Of a DNA stretch of 64,000 nt, positions 55,555 through 63,860 are shown one piece after another. Below the pieces are notes generated by a model, which saw nothing but the letters and a program-made list of their open reading frames with translations, ran no database searches and was not told the origin of the DNA. The translations under genes were made by a program, and so were the position numbers. The stretch's first letter is position 1; every line of letters starts with the position of its first letter. This stretch comes from Wenjunlia vitaminophila DSM 41686 (GTDB lineage Bacteria > Actinomycetota > Actinomycetes > Streptomycetales > Streptomycetaceae): positions 1 to 64,000 of the forward strand of contig NZ_KB904664.1 of NCBI RefSeq assembly GCF_000380165.1, written 5' to 3'.

Positions 55555-55582
55555 CCGGCCCCCGCCTGGCGGTGGGGGCCGG
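55555..55582. terminator. bidirectional terminator between geosmin synthase and the tail module
   Basis: CCGGCCCCC at 55555-55563 is perfectly complementary to GGGGGCCGG at 55574-55582 with a 10-nt loop. It lies between two convergent units, 58 bp after geoA and 66 bp after the last tail gene. Confidence 0.7.
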
Positions 55583-55647: not shown

Positions 55648-55833
55648 TCAGGGTTCGGGCTGCCCGGTTCCGTCGGTGGCTGGTTGTTCCACCTCGGACG
55701 CCGGTGAGGACGGAACCGCCGTCACTGATCCCGGCGGGGCTCCCACCTTGCTGTTGACGTAGGTGGTCAGCCGGTGCACCTCCCGTTCCAGCGCCCTGAT
55801 CCGGTCCACGATGTCCTCCGGAAGATTCGGCAT
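55648..55833 (-). CDS. small coiled-coil protein at the end of the tail operon
   Basis: A 61-residue protein. Residues 4-30 form an amphipathic helix with heptad pattern (LPEDIVDRIRALEREVHRLT). The rest is a disordered Pro/Ser/Thr tail. Short proteins beginning this way sit after the minor tail genes of many actinophages. They may be trimerisation stalks or chaperones of the tip. It follows the tail-tip gene by 30 bp and is the last gene before the terminator. Confidence 0.7.
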   Translation of the reverse strand: MPNLPEDIVDRIRALEREVHRLTTYVNSKVGAPPGSVTAVPSSPASEVEQPATDGTGQPEP

Positions 55834-55863
55834 CGGCTCACCTTCCCGACGGTGACTGAGGCC

Positions 55864-56949
55864 TCATCGGGCCTCCTCCAGGTACAGTTCCGCGGTCTCC
55901 GCGCGCCCCCGCTCCGCTCCCGTGACCTTGATCCCGACCACCCGGTAGTGCGCGTCGAGCCCCTCGTGGAACCACACGTCCCTGATCCGCAGCCGCACCG
56001 TGCGGCCCAGCGGCGACGCCGTGTCGCCCGACCTGCGCCGGATCCGCACCGAGGGGATCACCACAGGACCGCGCAGGGCGGCCAGGTCTGCCCGCGCCAG
56101 GGCGTTCAGGGCCGCCTTGTCGGTGACCGTGCTGTGGTCGGACGTCGTGTCCAGACGCGGATATCCCGCGGCGATGAGGTCGCCGGCGACCTGCTCGTCC
56201 GAGATGACCGGCCGGTCCCCGCCCGGCGGGGTTCCGCCCCTGGCCCGGGCGGTGGTGCCGCCCCGGGTCGCGTCCCTCGGGAACGCGTAGGAGATCACGT
56301 CTCCTGGCAGGTCGAGTAGCAGGGGTTCGCTGCCCACCTGGATTCGGGGGGAGCCCAGGCGGAGCCGCTTGACCCGCCGCCCGGTGGCCGGGTCCCGGTA
56401 CACCGCGATCCAGGTCTCGAACCCGGGCTCCATGCCCGCGAGTTGACCGATCGCCTCCTCGACCAGGGTTTCGTCGCCGTCCCGGTAGGTCACGCTGCGC
56501 AGCGCCCCGGAGGTGAGCGGGTCGTACTCCACCCCGATGGCGCCGCCCTCCGCCGCCTGCATGTGGTCCCAGAGCCGACGGACGACCTCGAGTTGGTCGG
56601 TGGCGGTGAACGTCAGGTCCGCGCGGATGTAGCGGCGGCCCGCGTACGAGTCGAACGTCGCCGCCTGGAGCGCCACCGTGGTGATGCCGCGGTCGTCGGT
56701 CGCCGGGGTCAGGGTCCACACGATGCCGCCCCAGCACGGCTCACTCCCCCGCTCCAGGTACACCGCGGTGCGCCCCTCCACCACCTGGCGCACCCGAGCG
56801 GCGACACGCCCGTTGGGAACGACCAGGGTGCCGCTGAGCGATCCGGGTTTGCCGATGTAGTCGTCGTACTCCACATCACGCAGCGGCAGCACGTCGATGG
56901 CCTGGTCGGTCCGCAGGTCGGTGAAGACGGCGCGGTAGGGGGCGTCCAC
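55864..56949 (-). CDS. siphovirus tail-tip protein (Gp37-like/Tal region)
   Basis: A 361-residue tail-tip protein. The N-terminal half is beta-rich (YRAVFTDLRTDQAIDVLPLR, YIGKPGSLSGTLVVPN), then TFDSYAGRRYIRADLTFTAT and a long middle domain. It ends in TVRLRIRDVWFHEGLDAHYR and GIKVTGAERG, like the base-hub proteins that follow Dit in siphophages (ReqiPepy6 Gp37-like family). I chose GTG 56949, which starts just after the upstream stop at 56954-56956. An ATG at 57006 would overlap the previous gene by 53 bp. Confidence 0.75.
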   Translation of the reverse strand: MDAPYRAVFTDLRTDQAIDVLPLRDVEYDDYIGKPGSLSGTLVVPNGRVAARVRQVVEGRTAVYLERGSEPCWGGIVWTLTPATDDRGITTVALQAATFDSYAGRRYIRADLTFTATDQLEVVRRLWDHMQAAEGGAIGVEYDPLTSGALRSVTYRDGDETLVEEAIGQLAGMEPGFETWIAVYRDPATGRRVKRLRLGSPRIQVGSEPLLLDLPGDVISYAFPRDATRGGTTARARGGTPPGGDRPVISDEQVAGDLIAAGYPRLDTTSDHSTVTDKAALNALARADLAALRGPVVIPSVRIRRRSGDTASPLGRTVRLRIRDVWFHEGLDAHYRVVGIKVTGAERGRAETAELYLEEAR

Positions 56950-56953
56950 CGGG

Positions 56954-57997
56954 TCAGGCCACCGGGTCGACGCGGACGAAGCGGTTGTCGAACTCGGCCT
57001 TGACACCGGCGGCGGAGGACTGGTGGACGGCCGTCGCCGTGTAGACGACCCCGGGGGTCAGCCCGCCCACCGGGTACATCGTGCAGATCGACGCCCTGCC
57101 GTTGCCCGAGAACTGAGCCGAGCGCTCCTGGACCGGGGGCAGGATCTCGGTGCCGGTGCTCTCCTGCCGCACCCGGAACGACATGGTGGCGACGTTGCTG
57201 CCTTCCACGGCGGTGAGCGCCCCGACCGTGACGTGCACCCATCCCCGGGCGGGCGCGACGAACCTCGCGGTCAACGGGGTGTCGGGCCCGCCGGTGAGCG
57301 TCTCCACGAAGGTGGTGGAGGTGGTGTAGCCGTAGTTGAACGAGTACCGCAGGACGGCGTCGGGGATGTACTGCCGCCAGGCGGCGCCGTCCCAGCGTTC
57401 GAGCCGGCCGTTGACGTCGCGGTACTGGCCCACGTGGGCCCCGTCGTCCCGGGCACCGCCGGCCGGGACGATCCCGCCGAGCGCCGCGGTGTACCGGCGC
57501 CGGTCGGTGATGGCCGAGGCCCAGATGATCCCGTTGGCGGCGGAGGCCCCCGCCGGCACCGTCACCTCGTACAGCAGTTCGGCGTTCTCCGGCACCGCGG
57601 GCGGGGCAGGGGGCGCCGCCGGGGCTCCCGCCAGGACCTCCAGCGTCGCCTCGTACCGGCCCGACCCGTCGTAGTCGGTATCGTGGACCCTGACCACGAC
57701 GGCGTCCACCCGCGGCAGCGCGGCGTCGCCGTCGACGAACGTCAGCAGGGTGTCCGCGTCCACGGTGACCGGGTAGCCGCCCTGGGTGGCGGTGGAGGTG
57801 CCGGGAACCCACACCTGGCCCGGGGAGAGCCTGGCCTGCATGCTGGTGGCGGCGGTGCCGGAGAGCCGCAGGCCCCCGATCACGCACCCCGCCCTGGCCA
57901 GTAGGGGCCCGGTGGATGCCATGGCCAGGCCCACGGCCAGCCGGGTGTCCTCGCGGGTCTGCCCGTTGGGCAGGTGCCAGGCGGAACGAACGGTCAT
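56954..57997 (-). CDS. phage minor tail/tip protein
   Basis: A 347-residue protein. It opens with RSAWHLPNGQTREDTRLAVG, followed by strand-rich SGTAATSMQARLSPGQVWVP and VTVDADTLLTFVDGDAALPR. This N-terminal arrangement is common to tail-tip proteins of streptomycete phages and chromosomal tail clusters. The C-terminal part (RSAQFSGNGRASICTMYPV) is jelly-roll-like and may bind a surface ligand. The ATG at 57997 has GAGGAGG 5 nt upstream, which decides it over an earlier ATG. It lies between Dit and the hub protein. Confidence 0.75.
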   Translation of the reverse strand: MTVRSAWHLPNGQTREDTRLAVGLAMASTGPLLARAGCVIGGLRLSGTAATSMQARLSPGQVWVPGTSTATQGGYPVTVDADTLLTFVDGDAALPRVDAVVVRVHDTDYDGSGRYEATLEVLAGAPAAPPAPPAVPENAELLYEVTVPAGASAANGIIWASAITDRRRYTAALGGIVPAGGARDDGAHVGQYRDVNGRLERWDGAAWRQYIPDAVLRYSFNYGYTTSTTFVETLTGGPDTPLTARFVAPARGWVHVTVGALTAVEGSNVATMSFRVRQESTGTEILPPVQERSAQFSGNGRASICTMYPVGGLTPGVVYTATAVHQSSAAGVKAEFDNRFVRVDPVA

Positions 57998-58038
57998 CGA
58001 CGCCTCCTCGGTGCTTGTCGGTGTGGCCGCGGCACCCA

Positions 58039-58959
58039 TCACCACTCGGCCGAGCGCCAGGTGACGGTCGCGGTCGCGAGTTGGGCGTCCCCCGAGTCCG
58101 CCCGGAACGCGAGGTGCGAGGTGCCCGGAGGAAGGGTGAACGCCTCCTCCGGGGCGCTTCCGCTCGCCGCGGTGTGGCGGCGCGAGGCGGTGCCGTTGAA
58201 CAGCACGGTGCCCTCCGCTGTGTCGACTTCCAGCACGTCGTCCTGGGCCAGGGTGAGCACGTACTCCAGCCAGTCGCCGGTGGTCCGGTTCGCCAGCCTG
58301 GGCCGGGTGCACGGACCGACGAAGGTGATCAGGGGGTGGGCGGGGGCGCTGCCGGTGTTGTCCACCGCCAGGTCCCCCAGGGACAGCGGAGCGCCCCAGT
58401 CGAGCGGCCAGGTCAACGGCCAGGACAGACCGGGCTCGGGCTGGGGCAGGTGGACGGTGCCGCGCCGCTGCGCGGCCTCGTAGCGGCGGGGGTCGCTGGC
58501 CTTCCACTGGATGGTCAGCTTGGCCAGACGGCTGGTCAGGAACTGCCGGTCCGTGGGGACCACCCGCTGGGTGACCCTGGCCCGCACCGCCAGGGTCTCC
58601 CCGTGCAGCCGAACGGCCAGCCACTGTTCCTCGTCACGCACCGCGGTGGCGGCGCGCAACGCCCGCAGCGAGGCGAGCACCTCCCCGGGTCCTGCGCCGG
58701 AGGCCGGGGCGAACCACACCTGGGCGGTGACGGTGCGGGGCTGCGCCCACTGGGAGCCCGGCCAACCGCCGTGCCCCACCGGTCGGTCGGCGTCCGAGGT
58801 GTCCAGGGCGGGGAGCTCCTCCCAGCCGGTGATCCCTTCCGCGGCGATCCAGTAGCCGGTTCCTGGGCCCATGAGCAGGTCGGCCCACTGCACCTGCCCG
58901 TCCACGGTGATCAGCGCCCCCGGCTCGGCCGCGGCGGCGTCCGTGGTGTCGATGGCCAT
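58039..58959 (-). CDS. phage distal tail protein (Dit-like)
   Basis: A 306-residue tail protein. The N-terminal half has the Dit beta core (TVTAQVWFAPASGAGPGEVL, AVRLHGETLAVRARVTQR, SRLAKLTIQWKASDPRRYEA). This links the tube to the tip as a hexamer ring. The C-terminal half (PLITFVGPCTRPRLANRTTG, VDTAEGTVLFNGTASRRH) is the galectin-like second domain. The start lies 1 bp after the tape-measure stop, with GAGGGGG upstream, so translation is coupled. Position directly after the tape measure is diagnostic. Confidence 0.82.
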   Translation of the reverse strand: MAIDTTDAAAAEPGALITVDGQVQWADLLMGPGTGYWIAAEGITGWEELPALDTSDADRPVGHGGWPGSQWAQPRTVTAQVWFAPASGAGPGEVLASLRALRAATAVRDEEQWLAVRLHGETLAVRARVTQRVVPTDRQFLTSRLAKLTIQWKASDPRRYEAAQRRGTVHLPQPEPGLSWPLTWPLDWGAPLSLGDLAVDNTGSAPAHPLITFVGPCTRPRLANRTTGDWLEYVLTLAQDDVLEVDTAEGTVLFNGTASRRHTAASGSAPEEAFTLPPGTSHLAFRADSGDAQLATATVTWRSAEW

Positions 58960-58960
58960 G

Positions 58961-60256
58961 TCACCCCCTCGCCTTCATCAGGAACATCAGCTCCTCCGCG
59001 GTCTGCCGGGCGCTGGAGCCGGGCGCCTCGTGGTAGTGCTCGATGACGAACCCACCGTGGCCCCCGGACGAGCCGGGCCCGACGGTCCGTGCCCCGCCGC
59101 CGGCGGCGAGCAGGCTGTTCAACCGGCGCAGCGGCAGCACCGCCTCGGCCTGCCCGGCCTCGGCGAGCAGGGCGAGGGTGCCGCCGGGACGGGGCAGCAC
59201 GATGCCTCCGCCGGCGAGGGTGGGGATGGTGGGGAGGTTGACGCCGAAGGACTTGCCGCCGGCTGGTGGGGGAACCCAACTGGGAATGCTGACCTTGATG
59301 CGGTTCAGGGCGCCGATCGCCCGGTTCACCAGGCCGATGACGCCGTTGATGGGGCCCCTGACGGCTCCGACCACCGCGCTGAACGCGCCTCGGACGATGT
59401 TCGCCAGCCCGCGCAGCGCGCCTTGGATGCCGTTCCGCGCGGCGCGGAAGGCTGCCGGGACGCGCTGCGAGAAGAAGTCCAGCAGGGGGCGGATCACGGC
59501 CGTGATGGCCCGGACGGCGGTGGTGATGATGGTCTTGTAGATGGTGAAGTACGTCCGCACCACCGTGGACAGCACCCTCAGCACCACCGTGAACGCCGTC
59601 CTGATCGCGTTCCACGACGCCTGGACGACCACTCTGATCACTCGGAACGCGGTGGTGATGATGGTCCTGTAGATGGTGAAGTACGTCCGCACCACCGTGG
59701 ACAACACCCTCAGCACCACCGTGAACGCCGTCCTGATCGCGTTCCACGACGCCTGGACGACCTGTCTGGCCACCCGCATGGTCGTGTTGATCACCTGGCC
59801 GATGATCCGGAATGCGCTCTGCACGATCCGCTGGACCGTCCTGGACTGCATGGCCATGTCCACGAGCTTCATGATCAGCGGCATCAGCAGCGCCAGCACC
59901 AGCCCGAAGACGTTGCTCTTCATGGCGGTGTTGAGGCCCTTCTGAGCAGTGGTCACCCCTTGGAGGCCGGTCTTCATCCGCCCCATGAGCCCGCCGCCGG
60001 TGGCGGCGCTGCGCCCGGCGGCGGCCATCGACCTGCCGCTGCGGGCAACGCTCTGTTCGGCGGCTCGAGCCTGCTGCTTGAGGCCGCCCATGGATTGGGA
60101 AGCTCCCTGGACACCGGCCTTCACGTGTGCGACCGAACCGGACGCCCCGGTGGCCGAGGCACGTAACCCGGTGAGGGACGCGCTCGCCTGCCGCGTGGAG
60201 GACGCGAAACTGCGTACGGCAGTGGTCGATGAGCGCAGCGCGGCTGTGAGTGACAT
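58961..60256 (-). CDS. phage tail tape measure protein (short)
   Basis: A 431-residue helical protein that sets tail length and sits in the tube lumen. It begins with Ser/Ala/Thr-rich helices, then GGGLMGRMKTGLQGVTTAQK, a hydrophobic helix pair (NVFGLVLALLMPLIMKLVDM), a region of 44-residue repeats (QASWNAIRTAFTVVLRVLST, VVRTYFTIY, TIITTA), Ala-rich helices and a compact C-terminus. At about 0.15 nm per residue it predicts a tail of only about 65 nm. There is no peptidase or muramidase domain. The ATG at 60256 has GAGGAAGAG upstream. Confidence 0.85.
   Translation of the reverse strand: MSLTAALRSSTTAVRSFASSTRQASASLTGLRASATGASGSVAHVKAGVQGASQSMGGLKQQARAAEQSVARSGRSMAAAGRSAATGGGLMGRMKTGLQGVTTAQKGLNTAMKSNVFGLVLALLMPLIMKLVDMAMQSRTVQRIVQSAFRIIGQVINTTMRVARQVVQASWNAIRTAFTVVLRVLSTVVRTYFTIYRTIITTAFRVIRVVVQASWNAIRTAFTVVLRVLSTVVRTYFTIYKTIITTAVRAITAVIRPLLDFFSQRVPAAFRAARNGIQGALRGLANIVRGAFSAVVGAVRGPINGVIGLVNRAIGALNRIKVSIPSWVPPPAGGKSFGVNLPTIPTLAGGGIVLPRPGGTLALLAEAGQAEAVLPLRRLNSLLAAGGGARTVGPGSSGGHGGFVIEHYHEAPGSSARQTAEELMFLMKARG
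59517..59762 (-). repeat. near-identical 114-bp duplication inside the tape measure gene
   Basis: 59517-59630 and 59649-59762 match at almost every base, with a 132-bp period (44 codons). The duplication keeps the reading frame. High DNA identity, not just protein similarity, implies a recent event. Confidence 0.88.
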
Positions 60257-60297
60257 CTCTTCCTCTTCTGATGGGTGATGGGTCGGCCGCTCCCCGG

Positions 60298-60999
60298 TCA
60301 GACCAATGCGTTCTCCACGTCCGTCACTCGTGACCGCAGTTCCGTCATTTCCTCCCGGAGGCTGCGTGTCTTCTCCACGGTGGCCCTACGTGCGGACTCC
60401 GCGTCCTGCTCGTCCTGGTGGATTCCCTGCACGACCGCGGCCATCCGGAGCCGGCTGGCCCTCACCCGCGCCTCCGCCCTCTGGGCCTGCGCCTGCAACT
60501 GCCGCACCGCGGCGAGCTCGCGCCGGAGCTGCCTCTCGTTACTGTCCGCTATCCGTTCCCAAGCGGCGCGCCCGGGGCTGCCCTGGGGGTACCGCTGGCT
60601 CTCCTGCCTGGAGAAATCCAGGTGCTGGCGGGTCCGCTCCGCGCCCTCCAACCTGCTGCGCACCCTCTCGACGGAGGCCTCCAGACGCTGGGTGCGGCGC
60701 GAGAACCTGCGCTCCGCCACCTCCAACCGCTGCTCGGGGGACTGGGCACGGCGGAACGCCATGACTTGGCGCCCGGCCACGAACACACCGGTTTCATCCA
60801 CTTTCAGGACGGAGAACCCGAGGTTCGCGATGGAGAACGCGCCCAGAGCCGCCGCGAAGTCCGCCTTGCCCCATCCGGGCTCGATCTTGGCCTTGTACTC
60901 ATCGACCTCGACGCCGAGCTTCTCCACCTCCTGCTTCAGCCTTCTCAGCATGTCGATGACGGGTCCGTCGTCGTCCTTCTTTTCCTTTCCGTTCGTCAT
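60298..60999 (-). CDS. coiled-coil protein between the tail chaperones and the tape measure
   Basis: A 233-residue charged protein. Residues 12-40 form one helix (IDMLRRLKQEVEKLGVEVDE), a short middle segment follows (KADFAAALGAFSIANLGFSV), and residues 85-233 are a nearly continuous coiled coil (RLEASVERVRSRLEGAERTR, ELAAVRQLQAQAQRAEARVR). The family is not recognised. Its place before the tape measure suggests a scaffold or chaperone that coats it, or an extra tape-measure part. ATG 60999 lies 18 bp after the chaperone frame ends. Confidence 0.8.
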   Translation of the reverse strand: MTNGKEKKDDDGPVIDMLRRLKQEVEKLGVEVDEYKAKIEPGWGKADFAAALGAFSIANLGFSVLKVDETGVFVAGRQVMAFRRAQSPEQRLEVAERRFSRRTQRLEASVERVRSRLEGAERTRQHLDFSRQESQRYPQGSPGRAAWERIADSNERQLRRELAAVRQLQAQAQRAEARVRASRLRMAAVVQGIHQDEQDAESARRATVEKTRSLREEMTELRSRVTDVENALV

Positions 61000-61016
61000 G
61001 CCTGCTGCCCCCTGTC

Positions 61017-61442
61017 TCACGCACCGAAGAACTGCGCCAGCTCGGCTCCGGACGGCCCCCTGACGGTGGAGCTGTCCCGCGCGGGCGTGCCCCCCGGCGT
61101 GGGCGCTCCTCCCGCTCCCGGCCGCGGCACCGCCTCCGGAGGGTCGAGCGGGTCGGCGTACTCGTCGCGGTTCACCGAGGCGAACATCCAGTTGCCGATC
61201 GCCAGGTGGTCCACCGCGGCCGCGAGCAGGTGGTCGGTGAGGGTCCACTCGGCCCGTTCGCCTTCGTGGGCGCGGGCGAAGGCGGACTCCGGAGGGAGGT
61301 GTCTCACCAGCACCGCGAGCCGGCGCGTCGTCAGCGTCCCCCGGTGCCAGTCGAGCAGGTCCATCCCGTAGTACCGCAGCAGGTCCGCTTCCAGTGCCTC
61401 GGCGTACTCCTCGACGAGTACGCCGAGGCTCAGCCTTCCCCC
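61017..61442 (-). CDS. tail assembly chaperone, -1 frameshift extension (GT-type)
   Basis: An open frame with no credible own start. In the -1 phase relative to the upstream chaperone it continues GRLSLGVLVEEYAEALEADL, then LRYYGMDLLDWHRGTLTTRR, LAVLVRHLPPESAFARAHEG and a Pro/Gly-rich end GPSGAELAQFFGA. The core with YYGxDLLDxxRG is that of the second chaperone frame of actinophage tails. A fused product of about 234 residues would start at 61720 and slip at 61436-61442. Both products chaperone the tape measure. Confidence 0.75.
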   Translation of the reverse strand, partial: GGRLSLGVLVEEYAEALEADLLRYYGMDLLDWHRGTLTTRRLAVLVRHLPPESAFARAHEGERAEWTLTDHLLAAAVDHLAIGNWMFASVNRDEYADPLDPPEAVPRPGAGGAPTPGGTPARDSSTVRGPSGAELAQFFGA

Positions 61443-61720
61443 ACGCCGAGGCCCGTCTCCTCGCCGTAGGCGGACAGGATCGCACTGATGTCCTGGACAC
61501 TGACATCGTGCCCACACAGCCGGTCGTACTGCTCCTGGCCGAGCAGCAGCGCCATCAGGCCGTCGAGGTCGTTGTCGTCGAGCGCGGCCAGGGCCTTGGC
61601 TGAGCGGCGTGGGATCTCCGTCGGCAGCGAGAACCGTTCCCCGTCCACTTCGAACTCCCAGGCCAGTCCGAGTGCCTCCAGGCGCTGGGCGCGTGCGGCG
61701 TTGACGTTGAACACGGGCAT
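61430..61720 (-). CDS. tail assembly chaperone (G-type)
   Basis: A 96-residue acidic protein starting MPVFNVNAARAQRLEALGLA. It has a strand pair (WEFEVDGERFSLPTEIP) and a helical C-terminus (DLDGLMALLLGQEQYDRLCG, VQDISAILSAYGEETGL). This is the usual first chaperone, placed between tube and tape measure. The ATG at 61720 follows GGAGAGG by 4-5 nt. The stop TGA at 61430-61432 directly follows a G/A run that can slip. Confidence 0.82.
   Translation of the reverse strand: MPVFNVNAARAQRLEALGLAWEFEVDGERFSLPTEIPRRSAKALAALDDNDLDGLMALLLGQEQYDRLCGHDVSVQDISAILSAYGEETGLGVGEG
61436..61442 (-). promoter_or_regulatory. putative -1 ribosomal frameshift site
   Basis: On the minus strand the heptamer G-GGG-GAA sits one codon before the chaperone's TGA. 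Slippage by -1 re-pairs GGG perfectly in the P site and enters the extension frame with no stop until 61017. It is less ideal than GGGAAAG because the A-site re-pairs as GGA. Confidence 0.6.
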
Positions 61721-61748
61721 GGGGCCTCTCCTGTCTCGGGCGGCAGGT

Positions 61749-62327
61749 TCAGGACGTCGGTGCGAACGCGGGGTCGTTCATCAACCAGGTGGCCAGCGGG
61801 GTGGCGTTGTCCACGGCCAGCGCGGTGAACGTGACGCCGAGCTTGACGGCGGCGGTCCGGATGAGCTGGAACTCCTCGGTCTCGGTGACCTGGCCCCTGC
61901 GGATGACGAAGCGGTAGGTGATCTGGTTGCCGTCCGAGAACTCCACGCCGAGCATCCGCTCGTCCTCCTTGGGCTCGGCCACCACCTGGTACCGGTACAC
62001 CTGGGAGCCCGCCGACGTCTCCTCGACCGCGTCCCCTCCGAAGAAGAAGGGCAGGGTGTCCTCGTTGAACTGGAGGAGCTGGAACTTCACGGTCAGGTCG
62101 CGGTCGGAGTAGACGAACCGGGCGGGACTCACCGACTGCCAGGTGTCCACCGGGTCGATCTTGTCCTTCTTGTTGAACTTGACGCCGTCGGTGGTGGTGT
62201 AGCCCAGGTCCCGCCACTCCGCGGACCACGCGGTGGTGACGTCGGTCGGCACGCTGCTGCCGAGCGGGGCGGTCAGGACCCGGCCGGTCCCGGCGACACG
62301 GATCTCGTTCGGGTTCATTCCGGGCAT
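61749..62327 (-). CDS. major tail tube protein
   Basis: A 192-residue protein that forms the hexameric rings of a non-contractile tail tube. It begins MPGMNPNEIRVAGTGRVLTA, followed by the tube-like PTDVTTAWSAEWRDLGYTTT, a central barrel (DLTVKFQLLQFNEDTLPFFF), YRYQVVAEPKEDERMLGVEF, and the end ALAVDNATPLATWLMNDPAF. The pattern matches actinophage tube proteins. ATG 62327 has GAGGAG 6 nt upstream. No sheath gene is beside it, so the tail is siphovirus-like. Confidence 0.85.
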   Translation of the reverse strand: MPGMNPNEIRVAGTGRVLTAPLGSSVPTDVTTAWSAEWRDLGYTTTDGVKFNKKDKIDPVDTWQSVSPARFVYSDRDLTVKFQLLQFNEDTLPFFFGGDAVEETSAGSQVYRYQVVAEPKEDERMLGVEFSDGNQITYRFVIRRGQVTETEEFQLIRTAAVKLGVTFTALAVDNATPLATWLMNDPAFAPTS

Positions 62328-62407
62328 GCGAGGCTCCTCGGGCGGCTGGTCGTCAGGCGGCTGGTCGCGCGGGCGACGTTCGGCACGGTTCGGCGGGCGC
62401 CCCGTGT

Positions 62408-62815
62408 TCAGGCGGGGCGGACGAACAGGCGGGTGGTGGAGAAGTAGCGGCTGGCCCCGGCGTGCAGGTGATCGGGGAGCCAGCGCGGGCCCTCCGTCTC
62501 CGCGACGTCGGTGACGTAGGCGGTGCCGTAGGTGGTCCCACGCACGGTGAGCAGCGCGGTGCGGGTGGCCATGGCGAGGGTGTGCGCCGTGGGCTTGTCC
62601 GGGCCGTACACCTCCAGATCGATCAGCGGCTGGTCCAGGTGCAGGTCCTCGACCCAGGTGCCGCCGGAACGGGAGACCAGGACGGTCCGCTGGGTCCCGT
62701 CGAAGTCGGGCGGGGTGCGGTTGTCCACGACGACGCCGGTCAGTTCGGGTCGGTTCTTCAGATGGTCCACAACGAGGCGTTCGACGTCCGGGAAGATCAC
62801 CGGTGGCTGGGTCAC
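62408..62815 (-). CDS. tail terminator protein
   Basis: A 135-residue protein of the tail-completion/terminator type that caps the tube. VIFPDVERLVVDHLKNRPEL is the N-terminal helix. LVSRSGGTWVEDLHLDQPLI, DLEVYGPDKPTAHTLAMATR and the final TRLFVRPA complete the alpha/beta fold. The GTG start at 62815 has AAGGAG 7 nt upstream, a strong site that overrules longer frames. It is the first gene of the tail transcription unit; a hairpin lies 67 bp upstream of it. Confidence 0.82.
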   Translation of the reverse strand: MTQPPVIFPDVERLVVDHLKNRPELTGVVVDNRTPPDFDGTQRTVLVSRSGGTWVEDLHLDQPLIDLEVYGPDKPTAHTLAMATRTALLTVRGTTYGTAYVTDVAETEGPRWLPDHLHAGASRYFSTTRLFVRPA

Positions 62816-62881
62816 CTGCCCACTCCTTGTTGTCGTCAGGCCGTCCAGGCGGCGGACCTGTCCCGGGCGGGCGCAGAGCGA

Positions 62882-62924
62882 AGCGGCGGAGCCGTGACCC
62901 GTTGCCGGGCACAGCTCCGCCGCT
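62882..62924 (-). terminator. hairpin between the HTH gene and the tail genes
   Basis: AGCGGCGGAGC at 62882-62892 is perfectly complementary to GCTCCGCCGCT at 62914-62924, 4 bp past the HTH stop. It probably ends the short zinc-ribbon/HTH transcript. Confidence 0.65.
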
Positions 62925-62928
62925 GGCA

Positions 62929-63192
62929 TTAAGTGTGATTGCCCGACTGCCCGCGCACAACACCCCGGTCGGAAACCGCGGACAGCCGGTGAGTTCGGAC
63001 GCGTCCCCGCGCGGCCCGTTCGGCCGCGAACACGTCCTCGATCCGGTACAGGAACGCCCGGCCCCGCCGTCCCGCGGGCTTCAGGTGGCGCAGTTGCACC
63101 CACTTGCGGATGGTGGCCGGGGTGACGCCGACCTCGGACGCAGCCAGGGCGGCGGTGAGCAGCGGGGCCCGCGGGCTGGGTACGGTCCTCAT
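62929..63192 (-). CDS. small HTH DNA-binding protein (excisionase/MerR-like fold)
   Basis: An 87-residue protein with a MerR/HTH_17-like winged helix: LLTAALAASEVGVTPATIRK, WVQLRHLKPAGRRGRAFLYR, IEDVFAAERAARG. The basic wing suggests DNA binding, as in phage excisionases and small regulators. ATG 63192 overlaps the upstream stop by ATGA, so it is coupled to the zinc-ribbon gene. It could regulate the tail genes just downstream. Confidence 0.82.
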   Translation of the reverse strand: MRTVPSPRAPLLTAALAASEVGVTPATIRKWVQLRHLKPAGRRGRAFLYRIEDVFAAERAARGRVRTHRLSAVSDRGVVRGQSGNHT

Positions 63193-63860
63193 CGGGCCAC
63201 CACGCCGGGAACCTGGGCCTGGTCGTACAGGGCCGCGGTCAGTTCCTCCGCGGTGGCGCCGCAGCGCGCGGCGAGTTCCCCCCACTCGTCCTGCGGCCAG
63301 CAGTGGCGGTGCGCCGTGTCCAGGCGGCAGTCACACGCCGGTGCGGCGCAGCGGCACGCGGGGTTGACGCACAGCACCGCCCGGCGCAGCGGGAAGACGC
63401 GTAAGGAAACGGAGTCACACAGCGGGCACCGCCGGCGCAGTCGCACCACGGGTTCGGCGTCGCCGAGCGCCCGGTCGCAGCGCCGGGTGAGCGCGCTGAT
63501 CTCGTCGAGCACCTGTCGCAGCAGCACGGGGTCGTCGCCCGCCCGGTCCAGGAGCGCGGCGATCCGCCCCAGTCTGACCTGGACCGTTCCCCGGCTCCCC
63601 GGCGGCAGCCCGCACCTGTCGCGGAGGGTGTTCTCGAGCCGCAACACCCGCTCGGTGACGTACTGCACCGCCTCGGACACGTTCAGTCGCACAGGGGTCC
63701 CGGGGCCGTGTCGCTCGCGGCGGCCCTGGCCACGGGTGGGCGTGGGCGTCTGGTGGCTGGGTTCGAGTGCGTCCAGCAGCTCCGGGAACCGCCGGGCGAG
63801 GGCGGCGAGCCACTGGTCGGCTCTGGCACGGTCAGGATGCGGGCAGGTGCGCTCGCTCAT
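63189..63860 (-). CDS. zinc-ribbon protein of phage-type neighbourhood, function unknown
   Basis: A 223-residue protein. The N-terminal two-thirds is helical and Arg-rich (ADQWLAALARRFPELLDALE, VQYVTERVLRLENTLRDRCG). The C-terminal third carries a cysteine/histidine cluster: RCPLCDSVSLRVFPL, LCVNPACRCAAPACDCRL, TAHRHCWPQDEW. Such a knuckle likely binds one or two zinc ions and nucleic acid. Similar proteins next to small HTH proteins occur in actinophages. ATG 63860 has a GGGGG run upstream. It is the first visible gene on this strand; further genes may lie past the window edge. Confidence 0.75.
   Translation of the reverse strand: MSERTCPHPDRARADQWLAALARRFPELLDALEPSHQTPTPTRGQGRRERHGPGTPVRLNVSEAVQYVTERVLRLENTLRDRCGLPPGSRGTVQVRLGRIAALLDRAGDDPVLLRQVLDEISALTRRCDRALGDAEPVVRLRRRCPLCDSVSLRVFPLRRAVLCVNPACRCAAPACDCRLDTAHRHCWPQDEWGELAARCGATAEELTAALYDQAQVPGVVAR

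Follow-up and report, generated by a model that had tools for sequence, protein, structure and literature searches.

A gene cluster of a streptomycete, located on the minus strand at positions 55648-63860 of the window analysed here, is probably a compact, maintained tail-only element, which produces a short, non-contractile tail of siphophage type with no head, similar to the F-type tailocins. The window is a stretch of 64,000 nucleotides, comprising positions 1-64000 of contig C30 in a 6.43-Mb draft genome. The genes are arranged in the order zinc (Zn)-ribbon protein, helix-turn-helix (HTH) protein, tail terminator, tail tube, a pair of tail assembly chaperones, a coiled-coil protein (the coil), tape measure, distal tail protein Dit, tip protein 1, tip protein 2 and a 61-residue protein. 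An earlier, sequence-only reading had assigned ten tail frames to one minus-strand unit. Open frames and profile matches from 62815 to 55648 bear this out: the frames are genuine, their order is correct, and all but the coil match known families. The same reading had proposed a domesticated F-type tailocin or injection particle, which is supported by the absence of head genes and by the existence of relatives with the layout of a tailocin.

Absence of head genes

An ordinary prophage would have portal, capsid and terminase genes upstream of the terminator gene, together with an integrase. These genes were sought on contig C30 from 44 kb to the contig end at 80,197, and no capsid, portal, terminase or integrase gene was found beside the module; ordinary chromosomal genes are present instead. 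Because the remainder of the contig is ordinary chromosomal DNA and the real prophage of the genome is situated on another contig, the locus is a tail-only module rather than the end of a prophage. The left flank contains a two-domain, geosmin-synthase-like terpene synthase followed by other chromosomal genes. The right flank contains a divergent gene for a secreted Amidase_2 protein and VOC, Nudix, VanX-like, S4, PanD, P450, SDR and SARP-like genes. The G+C content of the module (0.71) is close to that of the flanks (0.72-0.73). The terpene synthase neighbourhoods of four other genomes (G001, G006, G008 and G009) share no synteny with the window and thus offer no empty site for dating the insertion.

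The siphophage origin of the genes, and a 61-residue protein that is the stub of a longer fibre, would suit a prophage end, whether ordinary or decaying. The intact form of this explanation is already refuted, and a prophage end was rejected on the evidence of the flanks and of synteny. Not only do head, packaging and integrase genes not adjoin the module, but the same tail-only layout recurs at different, unrelated places in the chromosome, in many cases between rpoC and rpsL, and the tail genes are under purifying selection. Furthermore, the cis element of the module has one genuine match in the viral contigs, which is itself a headless tailocin cluster. A prophage end is regarded as very improbable.

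The only capsid gene of the genome is found on contig C55, in a separate siphoprophage (L127, L128) with tail genes, a 1729-residue tape measure and an endolysin. Genome-wide searches with the PF03354 terminase and PF04860 portal models were negative despite this prophage; because both models miss it, their silence carries little weight. The presence of a full siphoprophage in the same genome allows for the module being a satellite-like donor of an alternative tail to it or to another helper. The C55 prophage, however, has tail genes of its own, including the long tape measure, its tube protein is only distantly related to that of the module, and the module is found at sites without phage genes. 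Such a role is given hardly any credence.

Related elements in Streptomycetaceae

Relatives were sought with the tube protein in 395 Streptomycetaceae genomes, in named Streptomyces loci and in IMG/VR. Tube homologues occur in 81 of the 395 genomes at E 1e-8, and 60 of the 395 have one at 46-100% identity. The search also retrieved 22 named Streptomyces loci; the IMG/VR protein search with the tube gave no match. Genes of the window and of 82 loci were called with a simple codon-based finder and then clustered. The 77 related rows, in which a few species appear more than once, group in a single clade that is separate from three prophages. The species concerned have two rows each.

The consensus of the full-size relatives begins with a divergent XRE repressor, followed by WhiB, the Zn-ribbon and HTH proteins, terminator, tube, chaperones and a variable slot. 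One or two tape measures, Dit, one or more tip-1 proteins, tip 2 and a fibre (phrog_9849) come next, and the element ends with an Amidase_2 endolysin, a holin-like protein and a small membrane or coil protein. No head gene family was found within this consensus among the clustered genes of the related loci. Strong LexA-type boxes are located upstream of the regulators or of the terminator gene in 17 full-size loci at a score of at least 8.4, and in 21 at a score of at least 8.1, as judged by a consensus scan only, in which the 99% level of shuffled sequence is 7.9. Judged by their genes and predicted boxes, the full-size relatives are of F-type tailocin design, because they combine tail-only genes, regulators, lysis genes and LexA-type boxes. 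The comparison of synteny that had been suggested as a check thus reveals the same tail-only design throughout, mostly accompanied by regulators and lysis genes.

About thirty loci (including L048, L052, L053, L055, L077 and L082-L099) have rpsL, often with rpsG and fusA, on one side and, in stretches long enough to include it, rpoC on the other; other loci of the family are found near dnaK-grpE-dnaJ. In the three prophages retrieved with the same query (L116-L118) other phage genes, including a homologue of the C55 capsid, are directly upstream of the terminator. One viral-database contig (L130, IMGVR_UViG_2862207470_000003) is exactly this headless cluster and spans it from the XRE gene to the final small gene. 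A looser tail-only cluster was noticed in a genome of another actinobacterial family (L141 in G716); its gene order is different, with WhiB and HTH genes placed centrally, and it includes lysis-like genes.

In S. venezuelae, mitomycin C induces a LexA-controlled 'predicted prophage cluster' 190- to 526-fold (PMC9380542). The increase is 526-fold for vnz_21525 and 190-fold for vnz_21545 and vnz_21550, and LexA sites are reported (PMC9380542). The gene spacing of vnz_21525-21550 fits the series XRE, WhiB, Zn-ribbon, HTH, fam19 and terminator. On the published numbers and this spacing, the cluster is a putative member of the present tail family. In the library searched, no literature on vnz_21525-21550 was found beyond PMC9380542.

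The type A clade

In a tree of the terminator, tube and short chaperone, the window groups with 11 Streptomyces loci (L037-L047) with a support of 100/100. These 12 loci, termed type A, belong to a set of 17 (96/90), which falls inside the lysis-bearing elements when the tree is rooted on the prophages, the root branch being long. Type A elements have no XRE repressor, WhiB, endolysin, holin or full fibre. A lysis cassette, present in most other relatives, was found neither in the window module nor in L037-L047; the remark that no lysis gene is visible in the window therefore proved correct, and it extends to the whole clade. No LexA-type box was found in any of the 12 loci, the best score (7.2) being below the shuffled 99% level.

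Because most pairwise omega values for the type A tail genes fall at 0.1-0.3, the tail is held to be maintained by purifying selection. Type A is a natural experiment, in which lysis and SOS control were lost and the particle genes were kept.

Relocation of the lysis genes was considered and rejected. There is no endolysin match on C30, and the endolysin of C55 belongs to the prophage. Two Amidase_2 endolysins at C63:17483 and C46:28344, about 70% identical to the tailocin endolysins, are solitary paralogues amid chromosomal genes.

Proposed nature and function of the particle

Like the F-pyocin of Pseudomonas, the monocin (ftb) of Listeria and the rhizoviticin of Allorhizobium, the module has a headless siphophage tail set and regulators. 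It has the complete non-contractile set that characterizes F-type tailocins, i.e. terminator, tube, chaperones, tape measure, Dit and tip, and the locus is devoid of capsid, portal, terminase and integrase genes. The endolysin, the holin-like gene and the LexA-type boxes of F-type tailocins are also found in the full-size relatives. In the window, a lysis cassette and SOS control were looked for and are absent (no XRE, and in a consensus scan no LexA-type box above chance upstream of the regulators or the terminator gene). For this reason the window copy is not filed as a full member of the F-type tailocins, although both features are found in the sister elements.

Several observations weigh against the interpretation as a tailocin-like particle. 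The lysis cassette and SOS control, both expected of tailocins, are missing throughout type A, and the solitary endolysins are only candidate helpers of the module. Three type A loci (L045-L047) also lack the Zn-ribbon gene, the HTH gene and the hairpin upstream of the tail genes. Finally, the likeness of the 61-residue protein to a truncated fibre could be a sign of decay.

The main rival explanation would have the particle act inside the cell, as the Streptomyces contractile injection systems (CIS, SLP) do. The compact module would encode a cytoplasmic, non-lytic particle acting in its producer during programmed hyphal death, development or stress, as a non-contractile counterpart of these systems. 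All 12 type A loci are without repressor, LexA box and lysis genes, yet their tail genes are under selection. The contractile systems of Streptomyces are reported to be cytoplasmic and tied to cell death or development (PMC10066040, PMC10020575, PMC11126660). A tail sheath gene, the only one found in the genome, is present on another contig (C27:82603-83121), and the strain probably also encodes a contractile injection system. On the other hand, tip protein 1 retains a variable domain, predicted to be lectin-like, which suggests a target outside the cell, and no inner-membrane docking protein was recognised among the module proteins. An intracellular role is considered unlikely on balance. A broader proposal can be put forward only tentatively: the clade may keep a streamlined headless tail under selection and use it as a non-lytic particle in the life cycle of the producer, or free it by hyphal death. 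Such a particle would be a non-contractile analogue of the contractile injection systems, with the hypervariable coil as a specificity factor or cargo.

If the element makes a tailocin-like particle, as is preferred here, the following sequence of events can be proposed. Transcription of the tail operon would begin at the hairpin from a sigma70-type promoter, with help from the HTH and Zn-ribbon proteins. Tube, chaperones and the 431-residue tape measure would build a tail of about 65 nm, which the terminator would cap in place of a head. Dit, the hub protein (tip 2) and the lectin-like tip 1 would make up the tip and attach to a sugar of the target cell. The particle may kill related cells by breaching the membrane, as F-pyocins and monocins do, while the variable coil and tip proteins may set specificity or avoid self-harm. 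As the window copy has no repressor, LexA box, endolysin or holin, particles would be made without induction by DNA damage and may be released at hyphal death or by lysins encoded elsewhere in the genome.

Comparison with other tail particles

The Streptomyces family differs from F-type tailocins in its Actinomycetota host, the promoter-hairpin, the Zn-ribbon/MerR/WhiB/XRE set, the rpoC-rpsL site and a very short tape measure of about 385-431 residues. The contractile injection systems are likewise domesticated phage-tail particles widespread in Streptomyces; they have a sheath and a contractile baseplate, and the module proteins have no match in Pfam or PHROG to the sheath that also marks R-type tailocins. 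The order terminator, tube, chaperones, tape measure and tip is common to the module and the temperate siphophages of Streptomyces (Kromp, the C55 prophage, L116-L118), and the tube of Kromp is the nearest phage tube, with 38% identity. In the siphophages, however, packaging, portal, capsid and connector genes come before these, and C55 also has the 1729-residue tape measure; all of this is missing from the module.

Very few bacteria are known to have F-type tailocins. One paper names no F-types other than F-pyocin, monocin and rhizoviticin, and no Gram-positive tailocins other than those of Bacillota (PMC10811719). No published description of this tail family or of any Actinomycetota F-type tailocin was found in a search outside of which lie preprints and most subscription papers. 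The tail-only family is thus widespread in Streptomyces and apparently undescribed, its novelty being provisional. About 15% of the sampled Streptomycetaceae species carry it, often at fixed places such as rpoC-rpsL, and its presence points to a second class of tail particles, non-contractile ones, in bacteria that produce antibiotics. It also offers an identity for the strongly mitomycin-induced 'prophage' cluster of S. venezuelae. Tools may call such clusters prophage or virus, as happened with L130 in IMG/VR.

Promoter-hairpin and regulatory genes

The tail operon is preceded by a promoter-like sequence, TTGTGC-N17-CACACT (62932-62960), which overlaps the 3' end of the HTH gene, and by a hairpin at the 5' end of the predicted tail mRNA (62882-62925; -41.6 kcal/mol and z -7.9 for 62882-62924), the left arm of which, CAGCGGCRGAGCTGYGCCC, is nearly invariant. 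In 68 loci the consensus is TTGCGn-N17-CACAnT, followed directly by CAGCGGC[G/A]GAGCTG[T/C]GCCC, a loop of variable length and the pairing right arm. One position of the stem changes from G-C to A-U in 6 of 40 sequences; covariation support for the hairpin is limited because most of the left arm never varies. The 19-mer of the left arm occurs once each in 47 of the 395 genomes, in almost every case a short distance upstream of the tube gene (a reversed control gave 3 hits). It occurs in two of 2.9 million viral contigs, the headless cluster L130 and an unrelated low-GC chance match. The promoter-hairpin cassette has no Rfam match at gathering thresholds.

The module had been described as bounded by two hairpins. 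The upstream hairpin is real, but it is not a boundary terminator. A main role as terminator of the HTH gene was rejected, since the same element follows rpoC in five loci (L049-L051, L070 and L072); because it is present even where rpoC is the upstream gene, the promoter-hairpin is part of the tail operon. Transcription is predicted to start within the hairpin, and candidate roles of the latter are those of an mRNA stabiliser, an attenuator or an operator. The downstream hairpin (55555-55582, minus strand), between the convergent tail operon and terpene synthase gene, is a possible terminator according to RNA folding; it is strong alone (z -3.3) and unexceptional within its 56-nt context (z -0.9).

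The HTH and Zn-ribbon genes do lie upstream in place of connectors, as had been noted, but they are part of the conserved unit rather than outside neighbours: each is found in 65 loci. The small MerR/AlpA-like HTH protein (62929-63192, 87 residues) matches phrog_2474 (E 5e-15) and HTH_17 (E 1.5e-5), and its regulation of the tail module is plausible. The Zn-ribbon protein (63189-63860, 223 residues), a conserved putative regulator encoded before the HTH and terminator genes, gave no convincing match in Pfam, PHROG and NCBIfam searches. The two proteins are not indispensable, since both are missing from three close relatives (L045-L047).

A TTGCG palindrome over the tail promoter, defined by an ad hoc pattern, was found in 33 of the 54 loci with XRE and in none of the 12 type A loci. 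Among 14 other loci without XRE in their stretch it was found in two, both with stretches ending early on that side. The palindrome is a candidate repressor operator. Control by bldA through TTA codons was rejected: the Zn-ribbon and tape measure genes of the window each have a TTA codon, and the relatives have none, so that the feature is not conserved.

Tail genes

The tail terminator (62408-62815, 135 residues, GTG start) matches phrog_123 (E 1e-23), and the tube protein (61749-62327, 192 residues) matches PF25681 Phage_TTP_17 (E 1e-63). The tube gave no match to solved structures by sequence, nor in NCBIfam. The short, G-like chaperone (61430-61720, 96 residues; phrog_10551, E 4e-21) is followed by an overlapping T-like extension (61017-61517; phrog_3656, E 8e-29). 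The two frames share GTG GGG GAA before the stop of the short form, and -1 slippage at the GGGGGAA site (61436-61442) would yield a 234-residue fusion. Because this heptamer is kept in all the loci listed for it, the chaperone pair is read as a -1 frameshift product; the conserved slippery site argues strongly that tails are still being assembled or were until recently.

The Dit protein (58039-58959, 306 residues) matches PF22768 (E 4e-8) and phrog_5577 (E 5e-84). Tip protein 2 (55864-56949, 361 residues) is a hub-like minor tail protein (phrog_1885, E 3e-66). The 61-residue protein (55648-55833) corresponds to the N-terminal stub of the relatives' fibre, its residues 1-27 matching phrog_9849 (E 1e-3). 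The fibre has about 240 residues in the full-size relatives, and the L054 homologue matches over its full length (E 7e-71).

Variable proteins

The coil (60298-60999, 233 residues), modelled as two long helices (pLDDT 74), is the only tail protein of the module without a family match among Pfam and PHROG profiles. It is hypervariable: its identity is 27-57% between species in which the other tail genes are mostly 68-98% identical, and its omega is 0.5-1.3. At the edges of the gene, DNA identity falls from about 97% to about 45%, and N- and C-terminal alleles are shuffled into mosaics. These patterns suggest recombination under diversifying pressure. In some relatives (L054) the coil slot is filled by a collagen-like repeat protein.

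The second most variable tail protein is tip protein 1 (56954-57997; phrog_3398). Its structure model is poor over the first ~190 residues, and residues 213-347 model as a C-terminal jelly roll of the TNF/C1q type. The lectins PLTL and BC2L-C are among the best structural matches (Z about 12); with PLTL, Z is 12.6 and the root-mean-square deviation is 2.3-2.5 over 117 residues. The modelled domain is likely lectin-like, and the protein is putatively receptor-binding.

The tape measure (58961-60256; phrog_1535, phrog_3981) has 431 residues in the window and 385-391 in the other type A relatives. A 132-nt tandem duplication (59503-59766), which adds 44 residues, is peculiar to the window among the relatives compared. 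Tail length corresponds to about 0.15 nm per tape measure residue; if this relation holds, the duplication would add about 7 nm to the length of the tail. Many full-size loci (e.g. L054, L080-L112) have two tandem tape-measure paralogues of similar length.

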